Translations under genes and position numbers: made by a program | Part shown: positions 1 to 16,553 of the stretch, piece after piece | Layout: each line of letters starts with the position of its first letter | Position numbering within the stretch: position 1 is the stretch's first letter | Origin: a virus | Length of the DNA: 20,193 nt | Reading direction: 5' to 3' (one strand) | IMG/VR virus record: IMGVR_UViG_3300038557_000057 | Span: 1 to 20,193 of that record | Notes under the pieces: generated by a model | What the model saw: only the letters and a program-made list of their open reading frames with translations | The model's database searches: none | What the model was told of the DNA's origin: nothing

Positions 1-336
1 TCATTCGAATAGCTCGGCATGCGTGCCAGCACGCGTGAAAATGACCAGATTGGCCTTGTCATCCAACGTGTAGACCACAAGGAAGTCGCCGCCGACATGG
101 CATTCCCTGTGATCGGCCCATTCGCCTTTCAAAGCATGATCCTTCCACTCCGCCGGCAAGGGCGCGTCGTTTGCCATCAGCAGCAGCATCACCCGTTTCA
201 GTTGATGCATATCATAGCGTGCGGTTCGATTGAGCCGGTCCCAGTCCTTGACGAACTGCCGGGTAAAGTCAGCCCGGCAGGGCAGTCCGGCCCGCTTGCC
301 TGTTTCTGTTTTGTCGCGCCTGCCGTCAGGCGGCAT
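1..336 (-). CDS. yafQ: YafQ-family type II toxin (mRNA interferase)
   Basis: Ribosome-dependent mRNA endonuclease of the RelE/YafQ superfamily, expected to cut translated mRNA unless bound by the DinJ-type antitoxin encoded just upstream. The 111-residue product aligns by eye with E. coli YafQ over its last ~85 residues: KDHALKG (His67), HRECHVGGDFLVVY (His80, Asp84) and GTHAELF (His106) correspond to the known catalytic residues His50, His63, Asp67 and His87, so the active site looks intact. I chose the ATG at 336 because it overlaps the antitoxin gene by 11 bases, typical of translational coupling. The open frame continues upstream to 465, but that part is antisense-like. The ribosome binding site is weak (GAGAAG close to the start). 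The N-terminus is about 20 residues longer than YafQ, so a later non-ATG start is possible. The stop codon is at the window edge. Confidence 0.88.
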   Translation of the reverse strand: MPPDGRRDKTETGKRAGLPCRADFTRQFVKDWDRLNRTARYDMHQLKRVMLLLMANDAPLPAEWKDHALKGEWADHRECHVGGDFLVVYTLDDKANLVIFTRAGTHAELFE

Positions 337-628
337 TCTTCTCACCGCGGCTCTTTGACGCCGGTCTTTCCAGCGCCTCAAACACTGAATCTGCGTCTTC
401 GAAACGACTGCCAGCCGCCGCCCTGATGCGGCGGGCCTCATCCATGGCAGCCAGTGTTTCCTCATTCGGACGAGTCAATTCCAGTGGAAGTGCCTTCTCC
501 CGCGCGATGCGGGTCAAGGTCATGCGCATGACATCCGAGATCGTCAGCCCCAGGCTGTCCAGCACGAGGGCGGCTTCATCCTTGAGAACCGGGTCGATGC
601 GGACCCGAACATAAGCATTTGCGGCCAT
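326..628 (-). CDS. dinJ: DinJ/RelB-family antitoxin
   Basis: Antitoxin partner of the downstream YafQ-type toxin; it neutralises the toxin and usually represses its own operon through an N-terminal ribbon-helix-helix. The 100-residue product begins MAANAYVRVRIDPVLKDEA and continues LGLTISDVMRMTLTRIAREK, nearly the same framework as E. coli DinJ (MAANAFVRARID...GLTISDLVRITLTKVAREKALP). The C-terminal ~40 residues are the expected toxin-wrapping part. I preferred the ATG at 628 over the in-frame ATG at 640 because GGAG lies six bases before 628 and because DinJ proteins start MAANA. A promoter-like sequence lies just upstream. The pair sits beyond the distal end of the GTA cluster, in the same orientation. 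Confidence 0.9.
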   Translation of the reverse strand: MAANAYVRVRIDPVLKDEAALVLDSLGLTISDVMRMTLTRIAREKALPLELTRPNEETLAAMDEARRIRAAAGSRFEDADSVFEALERPASKSRGEKNAA

Positions 629-654
629 GATCGTCTCCATGGGTTCAAAGTCTG

Positions 655-1008: not shown

Positions 1009-4000
1009 TTATCGAATGGGAATTGTCGCTTCGGTCGGAATACCGGCAGCCATCCGGCCAAGCTGGCGAATGCGGACTTTCAGGCTCTCTTGCTCCGCCC
1101 CGAAATCGGCAATCTCGACATCCGCCGCATAGATCAGCCTCGGCTCCGTCACCTCCACCGCCCGGCGCAGAACCTCCCCGTCGAGGATCTCGACCCGATA
1201 GCGCTCCGTCTCCTCGTCGAGCGGAATATCGCCGTCGCTCCAGGCGTCGGCATCGGTCCGCCCGCGCCGGATCCAGGAGAGCGCTAGGTCGCCCGCCTCC
1301 GTCCGCACCGCCTTCAGATGCACCGGCGAGAGCGGTGTTTCCGCGCGCAAGCCGCCGGCAAAGACATGCGGGCCGGAGAGATCGGTGACGAGCCCCATCG
1401 GCTCCAGGATCCAGTTCTGCGCGGCTCCGCGCTCCGCCATGGAAAGATCGAGCAGCTTCACCGCCGCATCGAGCAGCACGACATCCGCGCCCGCCTCGGC
1501 TGCAGCGGTCATCGCATCCTCGGTGCCGGAAAGCCCGCGCAGCAGCCCCGTCAGACGGAAGCGGCCCGCGGCAATCTCCTCTGCCTGCAGGAAGCCGAGG
1601 ATTTCCCAGGCGCCGGATGCCGCCCGCACCGCCAGCCGGTTCGTGCCCGCCAAAACCGCTGTCCGGCTCGCCGAAGACAGCGCCCCCGACAAGACATCGA
1701 GCACCAGCCTATTGGCCAGGTCGAAACGCCCGGAGACACCTGATACCAGCGGCTCCACCAATGCCCCGAGCGTCGCCGGCCGATCCAGCGTCAGGCGCAG
1801 CCGATAACCCTCCACCTCCGGCGAACTCGATACGGCGAGCCTCACCCAGGGTTTCGCATAGGCCGCAACAGAAGCATCGCCAGCCATCGCCGTTGCGTCG
1901 ATTCGCGGCAAATCCAGGAAGACCACCGTTGGATCGAAGCCGGCAGCGCCCGGATTGTCCAGCGCCCGGCCCGGCTCCACCGGCGACTTCTCAGCAGACA
2001 CTTTTCCGGCAAAGGCACGCAGCGTCAGCCGCCGCTCGAAACCGTCGTCGATCTCGCTTACCCGGAAACGTCCCGCCGGCCCGTCGGGCAGACGCAGCAC
2101 GTCGCCCGGCTGCACGGCAATTTCGTCCGGGCCCAGCGCCAGCTGCAGCGTGCGCCGCGCCAGCCGGTTGTCACGCAACAAGGCTTCGGCAGCCGCCAGT
2201 GCCGTCTCCTCGGGCATCACCGCCGGCAGGTCGCGGGCCAGCTGCCGTTCGGTTGCCGCTTCGACCTTGCGCGAGCGCACGCTCGCCTCACCATAATCCG
2301 CCGCCGGGTCGTAAAAGGTCACCAGCGCCTCCGAGGCGAAATCGCTGTCGTGCCCACGCGTCTCGCTCCACAGCGGCTGTCCCTCCAGATCCGCAAGCAC
2401 GGTCACGTCGCGTGCCGGCAGGCTGGCATTGGCCGGCGTGCGGAAACGCAAGATCTCGCCATCCTCCACCACGTCGATCTGGAACAGCTCTACCAGCGGT
2501 TCGATCAGGTCGCGCGCGGAGGTCAGATCCCCCTTCACGTAACCGCCGAGATCGCCCGCCACCTGCGACACGTCAAAATCGGCAAAGCCGTGATCGGAGA
2601 GGATCGCGGCAAGCGTATCGGCCAGCGTCGCCGTGCCCAGCCGTCCGTTGAGCCAGTGTCCGGTGCGCCAGTTCCGCCCATCGGCCCAAAGCCCGGTCTC
2701 CTGCGGAAAGGCCGGATAGGGCCGCGCGTCCCAGCTCCAGACGAAGATCTTCGACGCGTCGACCATGCCCACCGGCCGGTCACCATCTGCCCAATGGCCA
2801 AGATGCGCCTCAAGAAACCGCCGCTGCTGGCTGTCGGATCGCGCGCCGCTGGAAAAATACGGCCGTCCGCTTTCGGCAGACTTGGCATCGACAAAGACAT
2901 TCGGCTGGTTTGCCCCGCGATCGACCGCCCCGCAGCCGAGCTCAGTAAACCAGAAGGGTTTCATGCCGGGCGTCCAGGCCGTCGGCACCGCCTGTTCCAC
3001 TCCGCCGATCCGGTTGTAGTGCGTGTTACCCCACCAGCTTTCGAGATCCTTGAACCTGTAAACCCAGGGCTTGCCATAGGCACCGTCGGTAATGGCCGTG
3101 CGGACCCGCGCCTGCCGGTCCGCTTCGGTCGCATAAAACCAGTCAAACCCCTCACCCGCCGTCAGCATGCGGACAAAGCCCGCTCCATCGTCAGCACCAG
3201 CAAAGCCGTCAGGGCTCACCTCCTCGAGATCTTCGTCGCGCCAGTCAGCGAGCGGCATGTAGTTGTCTATCCCGACGCCCGCCACATGCGGGCTCGCCCA
3301 GAGCGGGTCGAGATGGAAGAACAGATCCCCCGAGCCATCCGCCGGTTGGTGGCCGAAATATTCTGTCCAGTCCGCCCCGTAGGAGATTGCCGTCGACGCT
3401 CCGAGAATGCCACGCACCTCGCCCGCCAGTGATACCAGCGCCTCGACAAAGGGAAAGCCGTTTGCCTCATCCCGCAGCGTCGTCAGCCCCCGGAGCTCCG
3501 AGCCGAGCAGGAAACCGTCCACTCCGCCTGCGTCCTCGGCCACCGTTGCATAATGCCTGATAAAGCGACGATAGCCGTCCGTCCGAGTGACGAATGTCGA
3601 CACCTGCGTGCGCGCCGCCGCCGTCGTGTCGACGCTGACCGGATAGGCGGTAATGCGCCCGCGCCAGGGATAGGCCGCCTGTTCCGCCCCGCCATAGGGA
3701 TCGGGCAGGCCGTTGCCCTCCGCGATGTCCATCAGCAGGAATGGATAGAGCGTCACCTTCAGCCCGCGCGCCTTGAGGTCGCGGATCGCCTCAACCACAC
3801 TCGCATCACTTGGCGAGCCGCCATAGGCCGGCCCGCCGCCGTGACGGCTCACCAGATGCGCCTGGGCGCGGGTGAGCCCTGCCACGCGCCAGGCCCGGCT
3901 CTCCTGCCGCCGGACCGATACCTCGACGCCCGGCAGGACCCGGCATTGCCCGGCGCGCAGATCGGTGCCGAACCAGGCCACCACCAGCGCCACCTCTTCG

Positions 4001-4788
4001 AGATTTGGGCACACAGCCTGCAACTCGTCGATCGAGGCCCGCCAGTCCGTCGATGCAGCAAGCGTGTTGCGGTTCAGCCAGCGTTTCTCGCCCGATTTCG
4101 GCGCATCGGACACCCGCGTCACCGCATAACCATGTTCGGTCGCGCCTGGGATGACCGCCACCGACCGGATCGCTGTCTCCATCTGCCCGACCGGCCGGAT
4201 CACCTCGAATTGCAACAGCGGAATGCGATTGCCGAAATCGTCGAGCGGCAGACGTTCGAAGACGACATAGGCAAGCCCGCGATAGGCAGGCACCTTGTTG
4301 GCGCCCTGCTTGGCGGCCATCAACGGGTCGACGGCCTGGCTCCGCGTGCCGCGATAGACGCGCATCTCGACCTCGGTCAGGTTCAATTCCCTCCCATCCG
4401 CCCAGACGCGGCGCACGCCCGCAATCGGCCCTTCGCAGAGCCCAAGCGCCAGATTGGCGTAATACTGATAGGTCGTGGTGCGCGTGCCGCCGGTCGATTT
4501 GCCGCCGCTGCGCTCCGTCACTTTCTCTTCCTCGAAGCGCGTCGCCCAGATCAGCGTGCCGCCCAGCCGCGCCGTTCCGTAGAGCTTCGGGATGGCGGTG
4601 CCCTCGCTGGCGCCTGCCAACCGCGCCGACGACAGGCGGATGCCGGTCACCGAGTTCGACCCACCGATCAGGCTGCGATCGACCATGCTGCCGACAGCCG
4701 CCCCCGCCGCCCGGCCCAGCATGGCGCCAACAGGCCCGAAGACCGAACCGAGGGCAGCACCCGCCGCCTGCAACAGGATCGTCGCCAT
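1009..4788 (-). CDS. GTA tail tip/baseplate 'megatron' protein (gp15-like)
   Basis: At 1259 residues this is the largest protein in the window, close in size to RcGTA gp15 (about 1300), which forms the baseplate and tip and contacts the recipient cell. Residues 1-40 are rich in Gly/Ala with short hydrophobic runs. About residues 340-690 match the GTA TIM-barrel, glycosidase-like domain (VTLYPFLLMDI early, FVWSWDARPYPAFPQ near its end). About 750-930 match the phage-tail_3 domain (LIEPLVELFQIDVVEDG). The rest is a beta-rich C-terminal region with a YRVEILDGE-type Fn3-like end. The ATG at 4788 shares its A with the gp14 stop (TGATG), with AAGGGG seven bases upstream. The frame runs upstream to 4839 but only inside gp14. 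No frameshift is seen over 3.8 kb. Confidence 0.95.
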   Translation of the reverse strand: MATILLQAAGAALGSVFGPVGAMLGRAAGAAVGSMVDRSLIGGSNSVTGIRLSSARLAGASEGTAIPKLYGTARLGGTLIWATRFEEEKVTERSGGKSTGGTRTTTYQYYANLALGLCEGPIAGVRRVWADGRELNLTEVEMRVYRGTRSQAVDPLMAAKQGANKVPAYRGLAYVVFERLPLDDFGNRIPLLQFEVIRPVGQMETAIRSVAVIPGATEHGYAVTRVSDAPKSGEKRWLNRNTLAASTDWRASIDELQAVCPNLEEVALVVAWFGTDLRAGQCRVLPGVEVSVRRQESRAWRVAGLTRAQAHLVSRHGGGPAYGGSPSDASVVEAIRDLKARGLKVTLYPFLLMDIAEGNGLPDPYGGAEQAAYPWRGRITAYPVSVDTTAAARTQVSTFVTRTDGYRRFIRHYATVAEDAGGVDGFLLGSELRGLTTLRDEANGFPFVEALVSLAGEVRGILGASTAISYGADWTEYFGHQPADGSGDLFFHLDPLWASPHVAGVGIDNYMPLADWRDEDLEEVSPDGFAGADDGAGFVRMLTAGEGFDWFYATEADRQARVRTAITDGAYGKPWVYRFKDLESWWGNTHYNRIGGVEQAVPTAWTPGMKPFWFTELGCGAVDRGANQPNVFVDAKSAESGRPYFSSGARSDSQQRRFLEAHLGHWADGDRPVGMVDASKIFVWSWDARPYPAFPQETGLWADGRNWRTGHWLNGRLGTATLADTLAAILSDHGFADFDVSQVAGDLGGYVKGDLTSARDLIEPLVELFQIDVVEDGEILRFRTPANASLPARDVTVLADLEGQPLWSETRGHDSDFASEALVTFYDPAADYGEASVRSRKVEAATERQLARDLPAVMPEETALAAAEALLRDNRLARRTLQLALGPDEIAVQPGDVLRLPDGPAGRFRVSEIDDGFERRLTLRAFAGKVSAEKSPVEPGRALDNPGAAGFDPTVVFLDLPRIDATAMAGDASVAAYAKPWVRLAVSSSPEVEGYRLRLTLDRPATLGALVEPLVSGVSGRFDLANRLVLDVLSGALSSASRTAVLAGTNRLAVRAASGAWEILGFLQAEEIAAGRFRLTGLLRGLSGTEDAMTAAAEAGADVVLLDAAVKLLDLSMAERGAAQNWILEPMGLVTDLSGPHVFAGGLRAETPLSPVHLKAVRTEAGDLALSWIRRGRTDADAWSDGDIPLDEETERYRVEILDGEVLRRAVEVTEPRLIYAADVEIADFGAEQESLKVRIRQLGRMAAGIPTEATIPIR

Positions 4789-5252
4789 CAGAAACCCCTT
4801 TCCGGAAATCGGTAGATGCCGGCAATCTTGCGTCTCCACCCCGGCACCAGCGCCGAGCGGATCACAGCCGATTGCTCATAGGCATGAATGAAGGCATCGG
4901 GCACACCGTTCAGATTGCCGTCGGTCATCTGCGCCAGAATGCCGGCATGTTTGGCCGCCAGATGCGGGCGAAAGCGAAACAGCACGAGATCACCCGGCCG
5001 GCTCTCTTCGAACGACGCGACAGCCAGGAAATGCCGCCCAGCCGCTTGAAGCAACCGCTCCTCCCCCGACCGCTCCGCCCAATCGGGTGCATAGGCCGGC
5101 ACCGGCTCCGGCTCCGCGCCATAAAGCTCCCGCCAGATCCCCCGGATCAACCCGAGACAGTCACAGCCCACCCCCTTGGTGGCCCCTTGATGCCGATAGG
5201 GCGTGCCGATCCAGCTCTCGGCAAGGCCGAGAACACGTGCGTTGACGGGCAT
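4788..5252 (-). CDS. GTA NlpC/P60 family peptidase (gp14-like)
   Basis: A 154-residue NlpC/P60 cysteine peptidase. In RcGTA the equivalent protein sits in the tail tip and is thought to cut peptidoglycan so DNA can enter the periplasm. Visible motifs are GVGCDCLGLIRG (nucleophile most likely Cys32), KHAGIL (His102) and FIHAYE (His123, likely third catalytic residue). WIGTPYRHQGA near residue 14 is the typical start of the family. I prefer the ATG at 5252 because GGAG lies six bases before it; the in-frame ATG at 5264 has no good ribosome binding site. The stop overlaps the gp15 start by one base, suggesting coupled translation. It is separated from gp13 by the lyase-like gene and the plus-strand toxin-antitoxin remnant. 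Confidence 0.93.
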   Translation of the reverse strand: MPVNARVLGLAESWIGTPYRHQGATKGVGCDCLGLIRGIWRELYGAEPEPVPAYAPDWAERSGEERLLQAAGRHFLAVASFEESRPGDLVLFRFRPHLAAKHAGILAQMTDGNLNGVPDAFIHAYEQSAVIRSALVPGWRRKIAGIYRFPERGF

Positions 5253-5333
5253 GGGGGGCTCCATGGTGGTGATGTTGAGGGATGGGGGTGCACCAAGAGG
5301 AGCGGCAAAAGATCAGCCGCGCCGCCGCAGTCC

Positions 5334-5466: not shown

Positions 5467-5727
5467 ATGTCCAAGCCCCCTCTCACCGAACCGATCACGC
5501 TGCGCGTTCCCACAGACGTGCTCGCCGGTATCGAAGCCATTGCCGAAGCGACCGAACGCTCGCGCAGCTGGGTGATCGTCCGCGCCCTCAAGATCTATCT
5601 GCAGCAGGAAGGCGCGGACATCCTCGCCTTCCGAGAGGGGCTCGATGAGGTAAAGGCCGGCGAGGTCGAGGACATGGATCAGGTCCTGAAAGACCTCGAA
5701 CGCATCGCGTCTGACAAGGTCGCCTGA
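5467..5727 (+). CDS. CopG/ParD-like ribbon-helix-helix antitoxin
   Basis: An 86-residue protein whose N-terminal half is a ribbon-helix-helix: beta strand ITLRVPTDVL at 10-19, helix GIEAIAEATE, then RSRSWVIVRALKIYL at 31-45. The C-terminal half is acidic and helical (EVKAGEVEDMDQVLKDLERI), as expected for a toxin-binding tail. Such antitoxins neutralise ParE/RelE toxins and repress their own promoter. The ATG at 5467 has CAGGAG six bases upstream. The stop shares its A with the next ATG (TGATG), so the two genes were built as a coupled pair. The gene looks intact although the toxin gene that follows is frameshifted. It is read against the GTA genes and sits at the junction of gp14 with the lyase-like gene. 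Confidence 0.85.
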   Translation: MSKPPLTEPITLRVPTDVLAGIEAIAEATERSRSWVIVRALKIYLQQEGADILAFREGLDEVKAGEVEDMDQVLKDLERIASDKVA

Positions 5728-6042
5728 TGCGCGTCATCCTGTCGAAATCGGCGGCAAGCTGGCTTCGCAAGGAAATGCAGTATTTGAAGCATTACAATCC
5801 GGCAGCCGCCAACCGCTTCGTCGCGACGATGGCGCAAGCCCGCCAGCTTCTGGGCCGAGTTCCCGGAAATCGGACCGGAGGGCGTGCATCTGCCTGTCCG
5901 GGGTGCCCGCACCTGGGTCACAGGAGACTATCTCTTGGACTACACCGTGACAGCGACAACGCTGACGATCGTCACGATCCGCCATGGTCGCATGAAACAG
6001 CTCGGGCTCGCTCTTGATCCTGACGACGACTGCAACCTGTGA
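5727..6042 (+). pseudogene. Frameshifted ParE/RelE-family toxin
   Basis: The first ~42 codons read MRVILSKSAASWLRKEMQYL...AANRFVATMAQARQLL, the normal N-terminal half of a ParE/RelE toxin. After codon 42 this frame degenerates and ends at 6017. The next frame gives the missing half without stops: AEFPEIGPEGVHLPVRG, then ARTWVTGDYLLDYTVTA, then TIRHGRMKQL, ending with TGA at 6040-6042. Removing one G from the GGG at 5852-5854 restores a continuous 104-residue toxin, so the break is a single-base insertion. All the typical family segments (FPEIGPEG, GDYLLDY, IRHGR) survive, so the lesion is recent, or a sequencing error, or less likely a programmed shift. As read, the 96-residue product lacks the C-terminal core strands and should be inactive. 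Confidence 0.85.
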
Positions 6043-6120: not shown

Positions 6121-6170
6121 CCTCCTTCTCCCCGCAGGCGGGGAGAAGGTCCCGGCAGGGGGATGAGGGG
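6121..6170. repeat. Family A palindromic repeat (copy A2)
   Basis: A CCTTCTCCCCGC..GCGGGGAGAAGG stem followed by GGATGAGGGG, like A1. It sits exactly between the convergent ends of the toxin remnant (6042) and the lyase-like gene (6184), where the stem could stop transcription from both sides. Confidence 0.8.
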
Positions 6171-6183
6171 CGGACCCGCCCTC

Positions 6184-6798
6184 TCACCCCCGGCTGACCT
6201 TGTAGTAACTCACCTGCTGGTCCGGCCCGACAAGGCCCTTGGTCATGTTGCGATAGATGCCATACTTGAAATAGATCGAACTCGCCGCCGCCGGAACCAG
6301 CGCCAGCCCGGTCTCCTTGATCACCGTCTTGCCATTCACCTTGGCCGTCACCGTCCCCGCCGTCGCATGCCAGCGGAAGGTGTAGCTGAAGGTATTCCAG
6401 GCCCCCTTGGGCACTTCCACCGGATATTCGACAAAGCTGTCGGTATCATGGTTATTGAGGCAGATGGTGAACTCGCCATTCTCATAGCGATTGTAGACGC
6501 TGTCGTATGCGCCGTTGTGCCACTGGCCGAGCGTCTGCTTGGGGCTGAATTCGGGATAGGCAGCAGGGATCTTCAGCTGGAAGGCATAGGTATGCGTCGA
6601 GCCGATCGCATCCTCCGTCGTTACCCGCGCCTCGCAGCGCTCGCGATAGTTCAAGGCGTCGCTGCCACCGGAACCGTTCCAGTAATCGCCAGCCTTCACC
6701 AGAAACGTCTCGACGCCGTCCACCCGGCTGTAGCGGCTCGCATCGACCGCCTGGACATAATAGGAATAGCCGTTTCCGTCAGGGCAAATGATCTTCAT
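6184..6798 (-). CDS. Polysaccharide-lyase-like (heparin lyase I type) protein inside the tail module
   Basis: A 204-residue protein that reads like a small heparin-lyase-I/alginate-lyase type jelly roll (Pfam Polysacc_lyase family, by recognition only). Family-like features are YRERCEARV (residues 51-59), YAFQLKIP (71-78), LGQWHNG (90-96 with Gln92 and His94), a beta-rich core and SIYFKYGIYR at 174-183, the Lys-x-Gly-x-Tyr-Arg segment typical of the fold. There is no signal peptide or membrane segment, so export by the usual route is not expected; export as part of a particle would fit. The ATG at 6798 has AAAGG eight bases upstream. It reads with the GTA genes, between hub (gp13) and peptidase (gp14), where RcGTA has no gene. 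It might degrade or bind capsular or exopolysaccharide on recipient cells; a purely lectin-like role is the main alternative. Confidence 0.72.
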   Translation of the reverse strand: MKIICPDGNGYSYYVQAVDASRYSRVDGVETFLVKAGDYWNGSGGSDALNYRERCEARVTTEDAIGSTHTYAFQLKIPAAYPEFSPKQTLGQWHNGAYDSVYNRYENGEFTICLNNHDTDSFVEYPVEVPKGAWNTFSYTFRWHATAGTVTAKVNGKTVIKETGLALVPAAASSIYFKYGIYRNMTKGLVGPDQQVSYYKVSRG

Positions 6799-6929
6799 CG
6801 CAATAACCTTTCAGTGTGTTTGGGAGGGGTAGGCAAAGGGATTGAGCGAACAGAGGCAAGCCGGGAAAGTCCCTCCTCGGGGAAGGACAGGACAGGTGCC
6901 CGATTTACGGATGAGGGCACCTGCCCCGC

Positions 6930-7826
6930 TCACTCGTACAAGGCTCCGCCGTCATGGGTGCTTGCGCCACTCACATAGGAATAGGCGAAGTCGCTGCCCG
7001 GCATATGCGGGAAGCCCTGGAAATTCAGCTGGTTGGAAAACTTTGCTCGACAGGTGGCGAAGCTCTTGTCGCAGCCGACCGACAGCGTCACCGGATCGCC
7101 GATCCCGGGCGAGACCTCCAGCGGCAGCCACAGCCTGACCTCGACGACACCCTCGGCTAAGGCCCCGCTGTCCTCGATTGCGACACGCCGTCCGGCAAGC
7201 AGTCCGTCATCAAAACGCAGGTGCCCCAGCCGGAAATATCCCTCAGTCAGGCCAGCCAGACCCGAGATCCGCAGCCGGTCCGCCGCCACCACCGCCACGA
7301 CCTCTCCCACCCGCGTCCGCCCACTGAGCCCCATGTCGATCCCGCACCTGATGTCGCCCAGATCGGCGTCGCAGCGACGGTTATAGATCCGGCCCTGCGG
7401 CTGCTGCAGCCGGTGCGCCACGCTGCGCAGCTCCGCTGAAAAACCAGGCCCCGCCCGCACCACCTCGCCGATTTCCTGCACCGAGAGCAGCACATGCTGC
7501 TCCTCTGGTGCCTGCCAGTTGACCAGCAGAAGCTCGACCCTGGCACCGTCATAGCGGCCAGCAGCAAGATCGGCCTCCGTGATCGCCTCACTCGAAAACC
7601 CGCCCTCGATTTCGGCTGCGGGTGCGGCCAGGCCGCTTGCCGCGCGCGCTTCGCTTGCGGCAAAACCGCTCGCCGGCTCGAATGTGATGCCGGCAAAGGT
7701 CAGCGCCTCGTCATGCTCGGTAAAGCCGAGCACCACACCGTCGGCCCGCGTCACCCGCCAGGCACGGCAAAGCGTCGTCTCGCCGGTCGCGATATGCGCC
7801 GCAAGTGCTGCCGGGATTTCTCTCAT
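6930..7826 (-). CDS. GTA tail hub protein (gp13-like, DUF2163)
   Basis: A 298-residue protein of the DUF2163 / phage BR0599 family, the hub at the tail tip that joins the distal tail ring to the gp15 tip. Recognisable parts are the N-terminal segment with LCRAWRVTRADGVVLGFTEH and ITFEPASGF, the middle QGRIYNRRCDADLGDIRCG, and the C-terminal CDKSFATCRAKFSN followed by FQGFPHMPG. Four cysteines are placed as C152-x8-C161 and C252-x6-C259; RcGTA hub and lambda gpL carry an iron-sulfur cluster with similar Cys pairs, so one is likely here. The product is sometimes misannotated as an FAD dehydrogenase. The start ATG overlaps the gp12 stop by four bases (ATGA), indicating coupling. Full length. Confidence 0.94.
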   Translation of the reverse strand: MREIPAALAAHIATGETTLCRAWRVTRADGVVLGFTEHDEALTFAGITFEPASGFAASEARAASGLAAPAAEIEGGFSSEAITEADLAAGRYDGARVELLLVNWQAPEEQHVLLSVQEIGEVVRAGPGFSAELRSVAHRLQQPQGRIYNRRCDADLGDIRCGIDMGLSGRTRVGEVVAVVAADRLRISGLAGLTEGYFRLGHLRFDDGLLAGRRVAIEDSGALAEGVVEVRLWLPLEVSPGIGDPVTLSVGCDKSFATCRAKFSNQLNFQGFPHMPGSDFAYSYVSGASTHDGGALYE

Positions 7827-8455
7827 GGGATCACCTCGATCAGCGGAATGGAGGGAATGCGCCCGGCGCGGAACGCCTCCAGATTGATCTCGATCCGGTC
7901 CGTATCGAATCTGACAGGCACGTCGTAGTCGAAGCCGGCGCGAATCTCGGCGCCGTCATCAGGCACATGGCCAGCCTCGAAGGTGACGATCCCTGTGGTC
8001 GCATCGAGCAAGAACCCGTCCAGCGTCTCCACCCCGTCCACGGCAAGCCGCAGACTACCCGCCACGGGCTTCAGCACCGGCCGATGCTCCACCGCCGCCC
8101 CGTCGCCATAGGCCTTGACCAGCTGAAACGCTGCCGTCACTCCGTCGCCCGTGCCGATCCGCTGATCGAGCGGTGTCACCGCCTCGCCCGGCCTTGCCGA
8201 GCAAAAATCGACCGGGTCGCGAAAGCGAAAGCCATGCAGCTGTCCGCCGCGTGCCTCGAAGAATTCCAGGACGGCGTAGAGATCCGCCATCGAGCGCAGG
8301 GCCGAACCGACATCATAACGACGCCTGGAAAACCGCCAGCGCCGATTGCGCGCCTCCCGGCCATTGCTGAGCGACACGATATCCGTCTGCCGCCCCGGCC
8401 CGCCGCTTGATGTCAGCGACAGACGCAGCGGAAAACGCTGTTCATGAAAGGCCAT
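7823..8455 (-). CDS. GTA distal tail protein (gp12-like, DUF2460)
   Basis: A 210-residue DUF2460 protein; in RcGTA this ring connects the tail tube to the hub. Typical segments are MAFHEQRFPLRLSLTSSGGPGR at the start, RWRFSRRRYDVGSALRSMADL, FFEARGGQLHGFRFRDPVDF, and a C-terminal GFDYDVPVRFDTDRIEINL. The ATG at 8455 has GGAGG five bases upstream; the frame is open to 8506 but the extra residues are not family-like. It overlaps gp13 by four bases. The 125-base gap to gp11 contains a short heptamer tandem repeat. Confidence 0.95.
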   Translation of the reverse strand: MAFHEQRFPLRLSLTSSGGPGRQTDIVSLSNGREARNRRWRFSRRRYDVGSALRSMADLYAVLEFFEARGGQLHGFRFRDPVDFCSARPGEAVTPLDQRIGTGDGVTAAFQLVKAYGDGAAVEHRPVLKPVAGSLRLAVDGVETLDGFLLDATTGIVTFEAGHVPDDGAEIRAGFDYDVPVRFDTDRIEINLEAFRAGRIPSIPLIEVIP

Positions 8456-8537
8456 CCACGCCTCCGTTCGGTTGAATTGTGAAGATTGCGGCCCGGACTG
8501 CTTCAAGGCCCGTTCGCATGGCTTCGAAGGGGCTTCC

Positions 8538-9763: not shown

Positions 9764-9795
9764 CCTCCCTCTCCCCGCTTGCGGGGAGAGGGAGG
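9764..9795. terminator. Perfect 15-bp hairpin, likely bidirectional terminator
   Basis: CCTCCCTCTCCCCGC (9764-9778) and its exact complement (9781-9795) are separated by TT. A family A-like CCCCTCA motif precedes it. It lies between the convergent ends of the nucleotidyltransferase (9626) and gp10.1 (9927). There is no U-tract, so termination is plausible rather than shown. Confidence 0.6.
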
Positions 9796-9860: not shown

Positions 9861-9910
9861 CCCTTCTCCCCGCCTGCGGGGAGAAGGTGCCCGAAGGGCG
9901 GATGAGGGGC
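9861..9910. repeat. Family A palindromic repeat (copy A4)
   Basis: A CCTTCTCCCCGC..GCGGGGAGAAGG stem with the GGATGAGGGG tail, 16 bases downstream of the gp10.1 stop. With the elements at 9679 and 9764 it fills most of the 300-base stretch 9627-9926, in which no complete gene is seen. Confidence 0.8.
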
Positions 9911-10136: not shown

Positions 10137-10516
10137 GGGGAGGCCGTCGTCTCCGCCGCCCCACCCGTCTGAAACGTCACCGTCAGCAATTCCCCGACGA
10201 CACCCGCAGCCCCCGCCACGCCGCCCTCGACCGCCATCTCGGCGACATCGGCATCCGACACCCGGTTGCCACCGCCGCGCAGACCGCAGGCGAGGATGCA
10301 GATGAGGTCGGCACTCTTCAGCCGCCCAGTGGAAAATCGTGCTGCGAGATCACCCAGGCTTTCGGCACCAAAGGCCGTCTCCAGCTCGGCAAGCGCCCCT
10401 AGTGTCAGGCACAGAATGCGCCGCTCGCCGTCGATGACGGCCTCCACCTCGCCGCGATGGCGGTTGGCGCGGGCGACCGTGACCGGCTCGCGCATCTCCC
10501 GTTCATAACCCCGCAT
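10133..10516 (-). CDS. GTA gp10-like tail assembly protein
   Basis: A 127-residue protein recognised as the GTA gp10 family (tail assembly chaperone type). Typical features are ANRHRGEVEAVIDGERRILC, LTLGALAELETAFGAESLGD, a central FSTGRLKSADLICILACGLRG and a Gly/Ala-rich end. I chose the ATG at 10516 because GAGG lies five bases upstream; the ATG at 10549 lies inside gp9 and the one at 10495 has no usable spacing. It starts seven bases after the gp9 stop and overlaps gp10.1 by four bases, forming a gp9-gp10-gp10.1 operon cut off from its neighbours by inserted genes on both sides. Confidence 0.88.
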   Translation of the reverse strand: MRGYEREMREPVTVARANRHRGEVEAVIDGERRILCLTLGALAELETAFGAESLGDLAARFSTGRLKSADLICILACGLRGGGNRVSDADVAEMAVEGGVAGAAGVVGELLTVTFQTGGAAETTASP

Positions 10517-10523
10517 GGCCACC

Positions 10524-10931
10524 TCACAGCGCCGCGAAGGAAACGGCACCGGCCGATTCCAGCGCGATCTCGAAGGTCATTTCCCCATCGTGATTGCCGG
10601 CATAATCCAGCGCCGTCACCTGAAACGGCGCCGTCACCGTGCCGAAATCCGGGATCACCACCTGGAAGGTCAGGATCGAGCCGGCAAAAAAGGCCGCCCG
10701 CACCAGCGCGTCCGAGGCCTGGTCCTTGAACAGACCCGACCCGGTGAGTGAGGCCCGGCGCACGCCCGCCCCTTCCAGCAATTCCCGCCAGCGCCCGGCG
10801 CTCTCGCTGTCCGTGGCATCCACCGATTGCGCGTTGAAGGCCAGCCGCCGGGCCCTAAGCCCCGCCACCGTCACAAACCCCGCCCCGTCCTCGATCTTCA
10901 GCAAGAGATCCTTGCCCTTCTGCCCGCCCAT
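10524..10931 (-). CDS. GTA major tail (tube) protein, TP901-1 family (gp9-like)
   Basis: A 135-residue tail tube subunit that stacks as rings to form the non-contractile tail. Family markers are MGGQKGKDLLLKIEDGAGF at the start, the TVAGLRARRLAFNAQSVDAT segment, the WRELLEGAGVRRASLTGSG block, a GSILTFQVVIPDFGTV strand, and the near-terminal GEMTFEIALESAG. The ATG at 10931 has AAGGAG seven bases upstream, one of the best ribosome binding sites in the window, as suits an abundant structural protein. It is divergent from the MFS gene with a repeat-filled 361-base spacer, so its promoter must lie there. Confidence 0.95.
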   Translation of the reverse strand: MGGQKGKDLLLKIEDGAGFVTVAGLRARRLAFNAQSVDATDSESAGRWRELLEGAGVRRASLTGSGLFKDQASDALVRAAFFAGSILTFQVVIPDFGTVTAPFQVTALDYAGNHDGEMTFEIALESAGAVSFAAL

Positions 10932-11292: not shown

Positions 11293-12522
11293 ATGAACAT
11301 GCCCCGCATCACCCTCGTCGCCGCCCTTGCGGTTTCGCAGATCCTCGGTTGGGGCACGACCTATGAGATGCCGGCGGTGTTCGGCCGCGCCATGGCCGCC
11401 GATCTCGGGCTTGCCAATGAGATGGTCTTTGCCGGCCTCACCGTGATGATGCTGACCATGGCCTTTCTCGGCCCCTGGACCGGCCGGATGATCGCCCGCC
11501 ACGGTGCCGCAAACATTCTCGCCATGGGCTCCGTCCTGATGGCTTCGGGCCTCGTCGTCCTCGCCCTTTCCACCGGCCTCATACCTTATGCCATCGGCTG
11601 GCTGATCCTCGGTGCTGGCGGCGCCTTTGCGCTGACGGTCCCGGCCTTCGCCGCCGTCGTCGAGCGCGAGGGGCGCGAGGCGCGCCGCGCCATCGGCATA
11701 CTCATGATCTTCACCGGGCTTTCCTCGGCCGTCTGCTGGCCGCTTCTGACGCTCGCCGGCGAGGCCTTCGGGTGGCGCGGCGCGCTGTTGGGTGCAGCCG
11801 CTGTCCAGCTCCTCATCGCCCTGCCCCTGCATCTCGCGCTCGGCCGCATCGCCATCGCCCGCTCTGACGAAGACCGCGCCGCCGACGCAATCGAGCCGCT
11901 GGACTTGAGCCCTCGCATGGCAATGCTCGCCTTCCTGCTGATCGCGCTCTCGACATCGCTTGCCAGCCTGATGACCTTCGGGCTGTCGCCGCAGCTCCTG
12001 CATATCCTCGAACTCTCGGGCGCCACGCCGGCCCTTGCGCTGCAGCTCGGCTCGCTGCGCGCCGTCTTCGGCATAACCGCGCGCGCCTTCGACCTGGTGC
12101 TCGGAAAACATTCCTCGCCGATCACGACAGGCCTTGCCGGCACGGCCATGCTCACCGGTTCCACCCTGCTCCTGATCTTTTCCTCTGGCACACCGTCGAG
12201 CCTGCTCGTCTTCACCGCCCTCTACGGCTTCGGCTCCGGTGTGGCGACGCTCGCCCGCGCCACCCTGCCGCTGTCCTTCTTCTCCGCCAGCCGCTTCGCT
12301 CGCCAGTCCGCCCGCCTCGCTTTGCCGCAAAACCTCGCCAATGCCACCGCCCCGGTCCTGATGACGGCCGTCATCGACCGCGCCGGCATCGATGCCGGCC
12401 TCTTCCTCGCCACCGCCTTCGCCGCCACGGGTTTCGCAGCGATCCTGGCATTGGCGGTGATTGCACGGCGCGCGCGGCCCATCTCCCCCCTTGCGGGGGA
12501 GAACGGAAAATCGAAGGCTTAG
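11293..12522 (+). CDS. MFS transporter inserted in the tail gene cluster
   Basis: A 409-residue polytopic inner-membrane protein with about 12 hydrophobic segments, in the usual two bundles of six separated by a polar loop near residues 190-205 (ARSDEDRAADAIEPLD). GPWTGRMIARHGAANILAMG at residues 60-79 is the expected loop 2-3 signature region, and FGWRGALLGAAAVQLL resembles the TM5-6 region of MFS permeases. The substrate cannot be told. The ATG at 11293 has no clear Shine-Dalgarno; Met3 is an alternative. It is read against the GTA genes between gp9 and gp8 and bounded by near-identical ~195-bp repeats. The last ~11 residues (PLAGENGKSKA) are encoded by the right-hand repeat, so its original C-terminus was probably replaced. 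Confidence 0.9.
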   Translation: MNMPRITLVAALAVSQILGWGTTYEMPAVFGRAMAADLGLANEMVFAGLTVMMLTMAFLGPWTGRMIARHGAANILAMGSVLMASGLVVLALSTGLIPYAIGWLILGAGGAFALTVPAFAAVVEREGREARRAIGILMIFTGLSSAVCWPLLTLAGEAFGWRGALLGAAAVQLLIALPLHLALGRIAIARSDEDRAADAIEPLDLSPRMAMLAFLLIALSTSLASLMTFGLSPQLLHILELSGATPALALQLGSLRAVFGITARAFDLVLGKHSSPITTGLAGTAMLTGSTLLLIFSSGTPSSLLVFTALYGFGSGVATLARATLPLSFFSASRFARQSARLALPQNLANATAPVLMTAVIDRAGIDAGLFLATAFAATGFAAILALAVIARRARPISPLAGENGKSKA

Positions 12523-14267: not shown

Positions 14268-14387
14268 CCCCTCATCCCCCTGCCTGGACCTTCTCCCCGT
14301 GAACGGGGAGAAGGGGGCACGCCGCTGGCCGCATTCGCCCTTCTCCCCGTTCACGGGGAGAAGGTGCCCGCAGGGCGGATGAGGGGC
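14268..14387. repeat. Inverted pair of family A repeats between capsid and adaptor genes (A5/A6)
   Basis: Copy A5 (14268-14316) reads CCCCTCATCC then a CCTTCTCCCCG..CGGGGAGAAGG stem. Copy A6 (14338-14387) is the same unit in the opposite direction, ending GGATGAGGGG. Together they form a large imperfect palindrome. The same inverted pair occurs at 16434-16553. Confidence 0.85.
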
Positions 14388-16433: not shown

Positions 16434-16553
16434 CCCCCTCATCCCCCTGCCGGGACCTTCTCCCCGTGAACGGGGAGAAGGGGGCAAAACGCCGGCCCCG
16501 ATGCCCTTCTCCCCGCCTGCGGGGAGAAGGTGGCGGCAGCCGGATGAGGGGCC
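16434..16553. repeat. Inverted pair of family A repeats between gp3.5 and protease genes (A7/A8)
   Basis: A7 (16434-16484) and A8 (16504-16553) are opposed family A units, arranged as in 14268-14387 and about equally spaced. The two pairs are therefore direct repeats of roughly 120 bases bracketing the gp4-gp5 block. Confidence 0.85.

Follow-up and report, generated by a model that had tools for sequence, protein, structure and literature searches.

The stretch of DNA analysed here (hereafter the window), a 20-kb IMG/VR "virus" record of 20,193 nucleotides (IMGVR_UViG_3300038557_000057), holds a gene transfer agent (GTA) cluster catalogued as a virus, and the gene at positions 6184-6798 on its minus strand, flanked by the baseplate hub gene gp13 and the tail peptidase gene gp14, encodes a predicted polysaccharide lyase of 204 amino acids with a jelly-roll fold resembling polysaccharide lyase families 7 and 20 (PL7 and PL20). 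The explanation we favour, whose chances we put at about even, is that a polyuronate lyase was captured into the cluster, is released upon cell lysis and clears the extracellular matrix for GTA particles. In these relatives of Peteryoungia, which live in soil and water, the particles, or the cells bursting to release them, would probably dissolve the slime of the bacteria themselves, so that the DNA reaches neighbouring cells.

A conserved gene in the tail-tip module

The lyase gene begins with an ATG start codon. The original prediction, made from the sequence alone, placed it between gp13 and gp14 in the orientation of the GTA genes, and its open reading frame, its Shine-Dalgarno sequence and the family matches of its neighbours agree with this placement. 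The frame is not a chance one, because 24 distinct sequences preserve it, with a median ratio of nonsynonymous to synonymous substitution rates (dN/dS) of 0.196; the GTA structural genes that were measured gave 0.08-0.27. The cluster is recognised as a GTA from its genes alone and, judged by family matches, appears to be of RcGTA type, with TIGR02217, TIGR02218, TIGR02219 and NF048004 all above cut-off and in the expected order. The gap between the lyase gene and gp14 also holds an antisense RHH/ParE pair (5467-6017) that the original prediction did not mention. The features of this region are listed below.

6184-6798, minus strand: polysaccharide lyase, PF14099, predicted PL7/PL20-like jelly roll without signal peptide; putative catalytic set R54, Q92, H94 and Y182
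6807-6812, minus strand: Shine-Dalgarno sequence GAAAGG of the lyase gene, shared by almost all of the 24 loci (locus L015 has AAAAGG)
6930-7826, minus strand: GTA baseplate hub gp13 (TIGR02218, 1.8e-87)
7823-8506, minus strand: GTA distal tail protein gp12 (TIGR02217, DUF2460, 1.1e-81)
4788-5264, minus strand: GTA tail peptidase gp14 (TIGR02219, NlpC/P60, 8.6e-58)
1009-4839, minus strand: GTA baseplate megatron gp15 (NF048004, E = 0)
5467-5727, plus strand: RHH antitoxin-like gene, an antisense insert in the lyase/gp14 gap
5727-6017, plus strand: ParE-like toxin remnant, its second half out of frame relative to relatives
6124-6149, no strand: 26-bp palindrome, an intergenic repeat directly downstream of the lyase gene, one of eight in the window

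IMG/VR lists other chromosomal GTA clusters as virus genomes alongside the window (L020-L029), and one of them, L024, is one and the same stretch as genome locus L005.

Fold and catalytic residues of the lyase

The protein matches Pfam family PF14099 (Polysacc_lyase) with an E value of 6.6e-15 and 56 bits against a cut-off of 29.9, residues 34-191 aligning with profile positions 39-197, and scores 24.5 bits, below the cut-off of 29.7, with the PL7 alginate lyase family PF08787. Using an alignment of 21 close and three distant relatives, we obtained an AlphaFold2 model with a predicted local distance difference test (pLDDT) score of 90.8 and a predicted template modelling score of 0.88; addition of the three distant relatives raised the pLDDT from 70 in the first model to 91. 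The predicted structure is a single jelly-roll domain, i.e., a bare catalytic domain, of the PL7, PL20 or heparin lyase I type, in agreement with the compact, beta-rich protein anticipated earlier. Its best structure matches in the PDB, from families PL7, PL20 and PL13, include PL7 alginate lyases (template modelling (TM) score 0.65-0.69), the PL20 glucuronan lyase 2zzj (TM score 0.66) and heparinase I (TM score 0.71-0.72, normalised by query length). Neither a single-sequence phmmer search nor profile A1, built from close relatives, had a meaningful match in the PDB, and a PHROG search gave no match; a profile of diverse relatives retrieved glucuronan lyase A (2zzj, E 4.3e-11) and PL7 alginate lyases (about 2e-4) from the PDB. 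PL7 alginate lyases such as PsPL7C, PyAly and A1-II' share the fold and the RxExR, QxH and YxKxGxY motifs with the protein, yet they are only 15-18% identical to it, are secreted and act on alginate. TrGL (2zzj), the PL20 enzyme that is the top PDB profile match, likewise shares the fold but is a secreted fungal enzyme with ~18% identity and reads QFI where the lyase has QxH.

The motifs of PL7 enzymes are RxExR, QxH and YxKAGxYxQ (PMC5923407). In the lyase the corresponding segments are R54-C-E-A-R58, Q92-W-H94 and Y176-F-K-Y-G-I-Y182, the third reading YFKYGIYRN, with K, G and Y kept and A and Q replaced. The segments QWHNG and YFKYGIYR, singled out in the original prediction, are both found in the protein and conserved among its relatives. 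Residues R54, E56, R58, Q92, H94 and Y182 are invariant across the 24 sequences, and the catalytic set is likewise kept in secreted sister proteins. In the alignment with PsPL7C, its chain positions 110 and 206 stand opposite H94 and Y182; with an assumed offset of 14 these positions would be the residues that PDB entries carry in mutated form as H124N and Y220F. The invariance of the PL7 catalytic set argues for an enzyme, so that of the "depolymerase or lectin" proposed originally the depolymerase gains and the lectin loses.

Loss of export features

The N-terminus contains no hydrophobic stretch, bearing out the claim that a signal peptide is absent. The nearest relatives outside GTA clusters, found in other Rhizobiaceae-family genomes (L140 and L141), are 43% identical to the lyase over the whole domain and retain the catalytic residues, yet they differ in their non-GTA location, in having an N-terminal signal peptide (by eye) and in a cysteine pair, GDC...DC, that also occurs in more distant secreted members. 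In the GTA form, six residues (MKIICP) are followed directly by the mature sequence of the secreted relatives, so no anchoring domain has been added, and both cysteines of the pair are absent from all 24 GTA copies. The loss of signal peptide and cysteines would fit folding in the reducing cytoplasm, where GTAs are assembled, and exit with the particles or by lysis. In locus L154 a secreted sister lyase gene (10346-10858) directly adjoins a ROS/MUCR regulator gene; the ROS/MUCR family controls rhizobial exopolysaccharide.

Distribution and history

The original prediction proposed a search for the gp13-lyase-gp14 arrangement in other Rhizobiaceae; it recurs in all 14 genome contigs and all 10 IMG/VR contigs with close relatives, and the close relatives are confined to GTA clusters. 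In the genus of R. wuzhouense, sampled as 63 genomes with one per species, 61 carry the hub and 15 the lyase, and in each of these 15 the gene occupies the gp13/gp14 site and no other place in the genome. Among 298 genomes of the family Rhizobiaceae, the hub is present in 217 and a PF14099 protein in 82; the starting genome is the only one, among the matches listed, in which a PF14099 gene adjoins the hub. Two genomes, G068 and G278, each carry two PF14099 genes that share a contig with the GTA hub, at similar spacing and some 22-41 kb away from it. An order-wide sample of 397 genomes contained no close or GTA-located copy except that of the starting genome, annotated phage genomes gave no match, plasmids gave remote Microvirga copies only, and a second scan of viral contigs added no loci to those of the first. 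In the genomes tested, the gene is thus not one that occurs mostly outside GTA clusters.

Since gp13 and gp14 are direct neighbours in most other Rhizobiaceae, or have just a short gap between them, the lyase gene is, on comparative grounds, an insertion at the gp13/gp14 junction. On a tree of gp13 and megatron, a minimum of 8 changes between presence and absence fall in the Peteryoungia group and its surroundings, and some sister pairs whose megatrons are 95-97% identical (L012/L105, L014/L106 and L026/L107) differ in lyase presence. In L015 the lyase, but not the GTA genes, clusters with the window's clade, which makes exchange of the lyase between GTA clusters likely. Given the patchy presence and the constraint on its sequence, the lyase is best described as an accessory yet selected part of the GTA cluster.

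Expression and candidate substrate

Within the 75 bases upstream of the lyase gene, the 24 loci share only the Shine-Dalgarno sequence and no conserved promoter was found, which would fit read-through from the GTA genes. A scan for consensus promoters, which is uninformative for these bacteria, gave no hit close to the gene.

Peteryoungia (Rhizobium) rosettiformans DSM26376 secretes a beta-1,4-glucuronan, and TrGL degrades this glucuronan (PMC10180729). In the genome of R. rosettiformans W3 (L009, G008), the GTA lyase is the sole PF14099 match, and PF08787 has none. We take DSM26376 and W3 to be one strain. Because one species has both the polymer and a lyase of fitting fold, glucuronan is the leading candidate substrate. 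Alginate-like or mixed uronic polymers are also possible, since PL7 enzymes match the improved model no less well and the histidine of QxH is missing from TrGL.

Proposed role and alternatives

We infer co-expression, activity, substrate, delivery route and gene-transfer effect in the following scheme. A secreted-type PL7/PL20-like polyuronate lyase would have been captured into the hub/peptidase gap of the GTA cluster in one Rhizobiaceae genus (Peteryoungia and relatives) and would then have lost its signal peptide and cysteine pair. Read together with the GTA genes, it would fold in the cytoplasm and escape when the producer lyses, as a free protein and/or one loosely attached to the baseplate. 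Its action outside the cell would be beta-elimination on an exopolysaccharide of 1,4-linked uronic acids, with the producer's own glucuronan the likeliest target, and the particles would pass through the cut matrix and reach recipients. Carriage on the particle, suggested in the original prediction, is no more than possible, because the lyase is a bare catalytic domain without anchoring and its presence is patchy, with no matching tail-tip change between sister pairs that have and lack it. Release by lysis of the producer cell is as likely as carriage on the particle, or more so.

Several observations weigh against the captured-lyase explanation. The gp13/gp14 junction takes other inserts too, so position alone is no proof of GTA function. 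Close relatives differ in whether they carry the gene (8 changes), and no tail-tip residues stood out as changing with lyase presence in the sister pairs; patchy presence together with unchanged tail-tip proteins means that the particle can do without the lyase. The protein has no anchoring domain, its start coinciding with the mature N-terminus of the secreted relatives, and the copy in L011 lacks YFK in its last motif. H94 is not kept in TrGL, the improved model is nearest to alginate lyases, and the proposed substrate draws on remote homology and one species' chemistry.

Phage tail-tip genes are often ordered by assembly, and the hub/peptidase position, the shared strand and selection like that on structural genes would all suit a stable tail-tip depolymerase, i.e., a fixed baseplate part next to the hub that decides which recipients can be entered. 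We nevertheless consider this unlikely, as six residues are all that the protein adds, by way of a docking segment, to the mature catalytic domain of its secreted relatives, and it is frequently lost without change in gp12-gp15. Unrelated inserts at the same junction in relatives, palindromic repeats spread over the intergenic gaps and the patchy presence could instead point to a passenger gene, an accessory cassette at a tolerant intergenic site with a house-keeping or unrelated cytoplasmic role. This too seems doubtful: the gene keeps the GTA orientation, unlike the antisense inserts, all 15 genomes that have it carry it at this one place and at no other, and an exopolysaccharide lyase in the cytoplasm would have no substrate unless released. 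Jelly rolls serve as lectins as well, and other RcGTA tail domains bind oligosaccharide (PMC7296036), yet a non-catalytic, lectin-like binder that fixes particles to the capsule is very improbable, with all six residues of the PL7 motifs (R54, E56, R58, Q92, H94 and Y182) invariant, in secreted sisters also. A lectin was rejected as the principal explanation on account of the invariant catalytic set.

Other inserts and repeats in the cluster

Eight near-copies of a 26-bp palindrome (CCTTCTCCCCGC..GCGGGGAGAAGG) lie in gaps between GTA genes of the window, with a chance expectation of none:

714-739, 6124-6149, 9767-9792, 9862-9887
14289-14314, 14339-14364, 16456-16481, 16505-16530

These palindromes are possibly recombination points or transcript ends. 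They flank the lyase gene in part of the loci (9/23 upstream and 7/23 downstream), and repeat-mediated exchange of the lyase is possible.

The RHH/ParE pair is present or absent independently of the lyase, and the second half of its ParE-like toxin, out of frame in the window, is open in the relative L106, which has RHH/ParE at its gp13/gp14 junction and no lyase. Sequence inspection of other relatives without the lyase places an FkbM-type methyltransferase at this junction in L116 and L117 and a possible Xre/RES toxin-antitoxin pair in L118. The junction looks like an insertion-tolerant site of the tail-tip module. Elsewhere in the window, a YafQ toxin and RelB-type antitoxin lie at the end of the GTA cluster (1-640, minus strand) and at the same place in L023. 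An antisense MFS transporter gene (11293-12522, plus strand) in the gp8/gp9 gap is under purifying selection (dN/dS 0.16) and is found there in almost all relatives whose sequence extends far enough to cover this gap. A nucleotidyltransferase-domain gene (PF01909; 9297-9626, plus strand), antisense in the gp11/gp10 gap, is found in several relatives too.

Comparison with known systems

The lyase bears on how GTAs pass through the exopolysaccharide of recipients. RcGTA attaches to the capsule by its head spikes, and capsule passage had been regarded as passive (PMC7296036). TspA (Rcc02623) of RcGTA, the first GTA matrix-degrading enzyme to be reported, is a loosely attached, detachable, biofilm-degrading tailspike that raises gene transfer, and was found by its authors in Rhodobacterales only (PMC13420450, preprint July 2026). 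The literature searched contained no report of a polysaccharide lyase encoded by a GTA.

By analogy, TspA would be the nearest functional parallel to the lyase, each being an exopolysaccharide-degrading enzyme made with an alphaproteobacterial GTA and proposed to aid matrix passage. The two are unrelated in fold and position: TspA is a trimeric beta-helix tailspike with an N-terminal beta-sandwich attachment domain, whereas the lyase is a single PL7/PL20-type jelly roll of 204 residues, without these parts, encoded inside the cluster in Rhizobiaceae. Phage tailspike depolymerases, too, have an N-terminal virion-anchoring domain that the lyase lacks. We tentatively suggest, with rather less than even confidence, that Rhizobiaceae GTAs acquired a lyase of their hosts' own glucuronan independently of TspA and re-tooled it into a lysis-released or particle-carried form, and that depolymerisation of the kin matrix is a convergent, lineage-matched trait that shapes which cells receive DNA. 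A single cultivable species, P. rosettiformans, unites producer, polymer and enzyme, through its glucuronan and the R. rosettiformans W3 gene; if the proposal is true, it would point to a lyase acting on a polymer for which no biosynthesis genes are known. With a second, unrelated enzyme encoded among the structural genes of a GTA from another order, matrix degradation would then be a convergent trait of GTAs.
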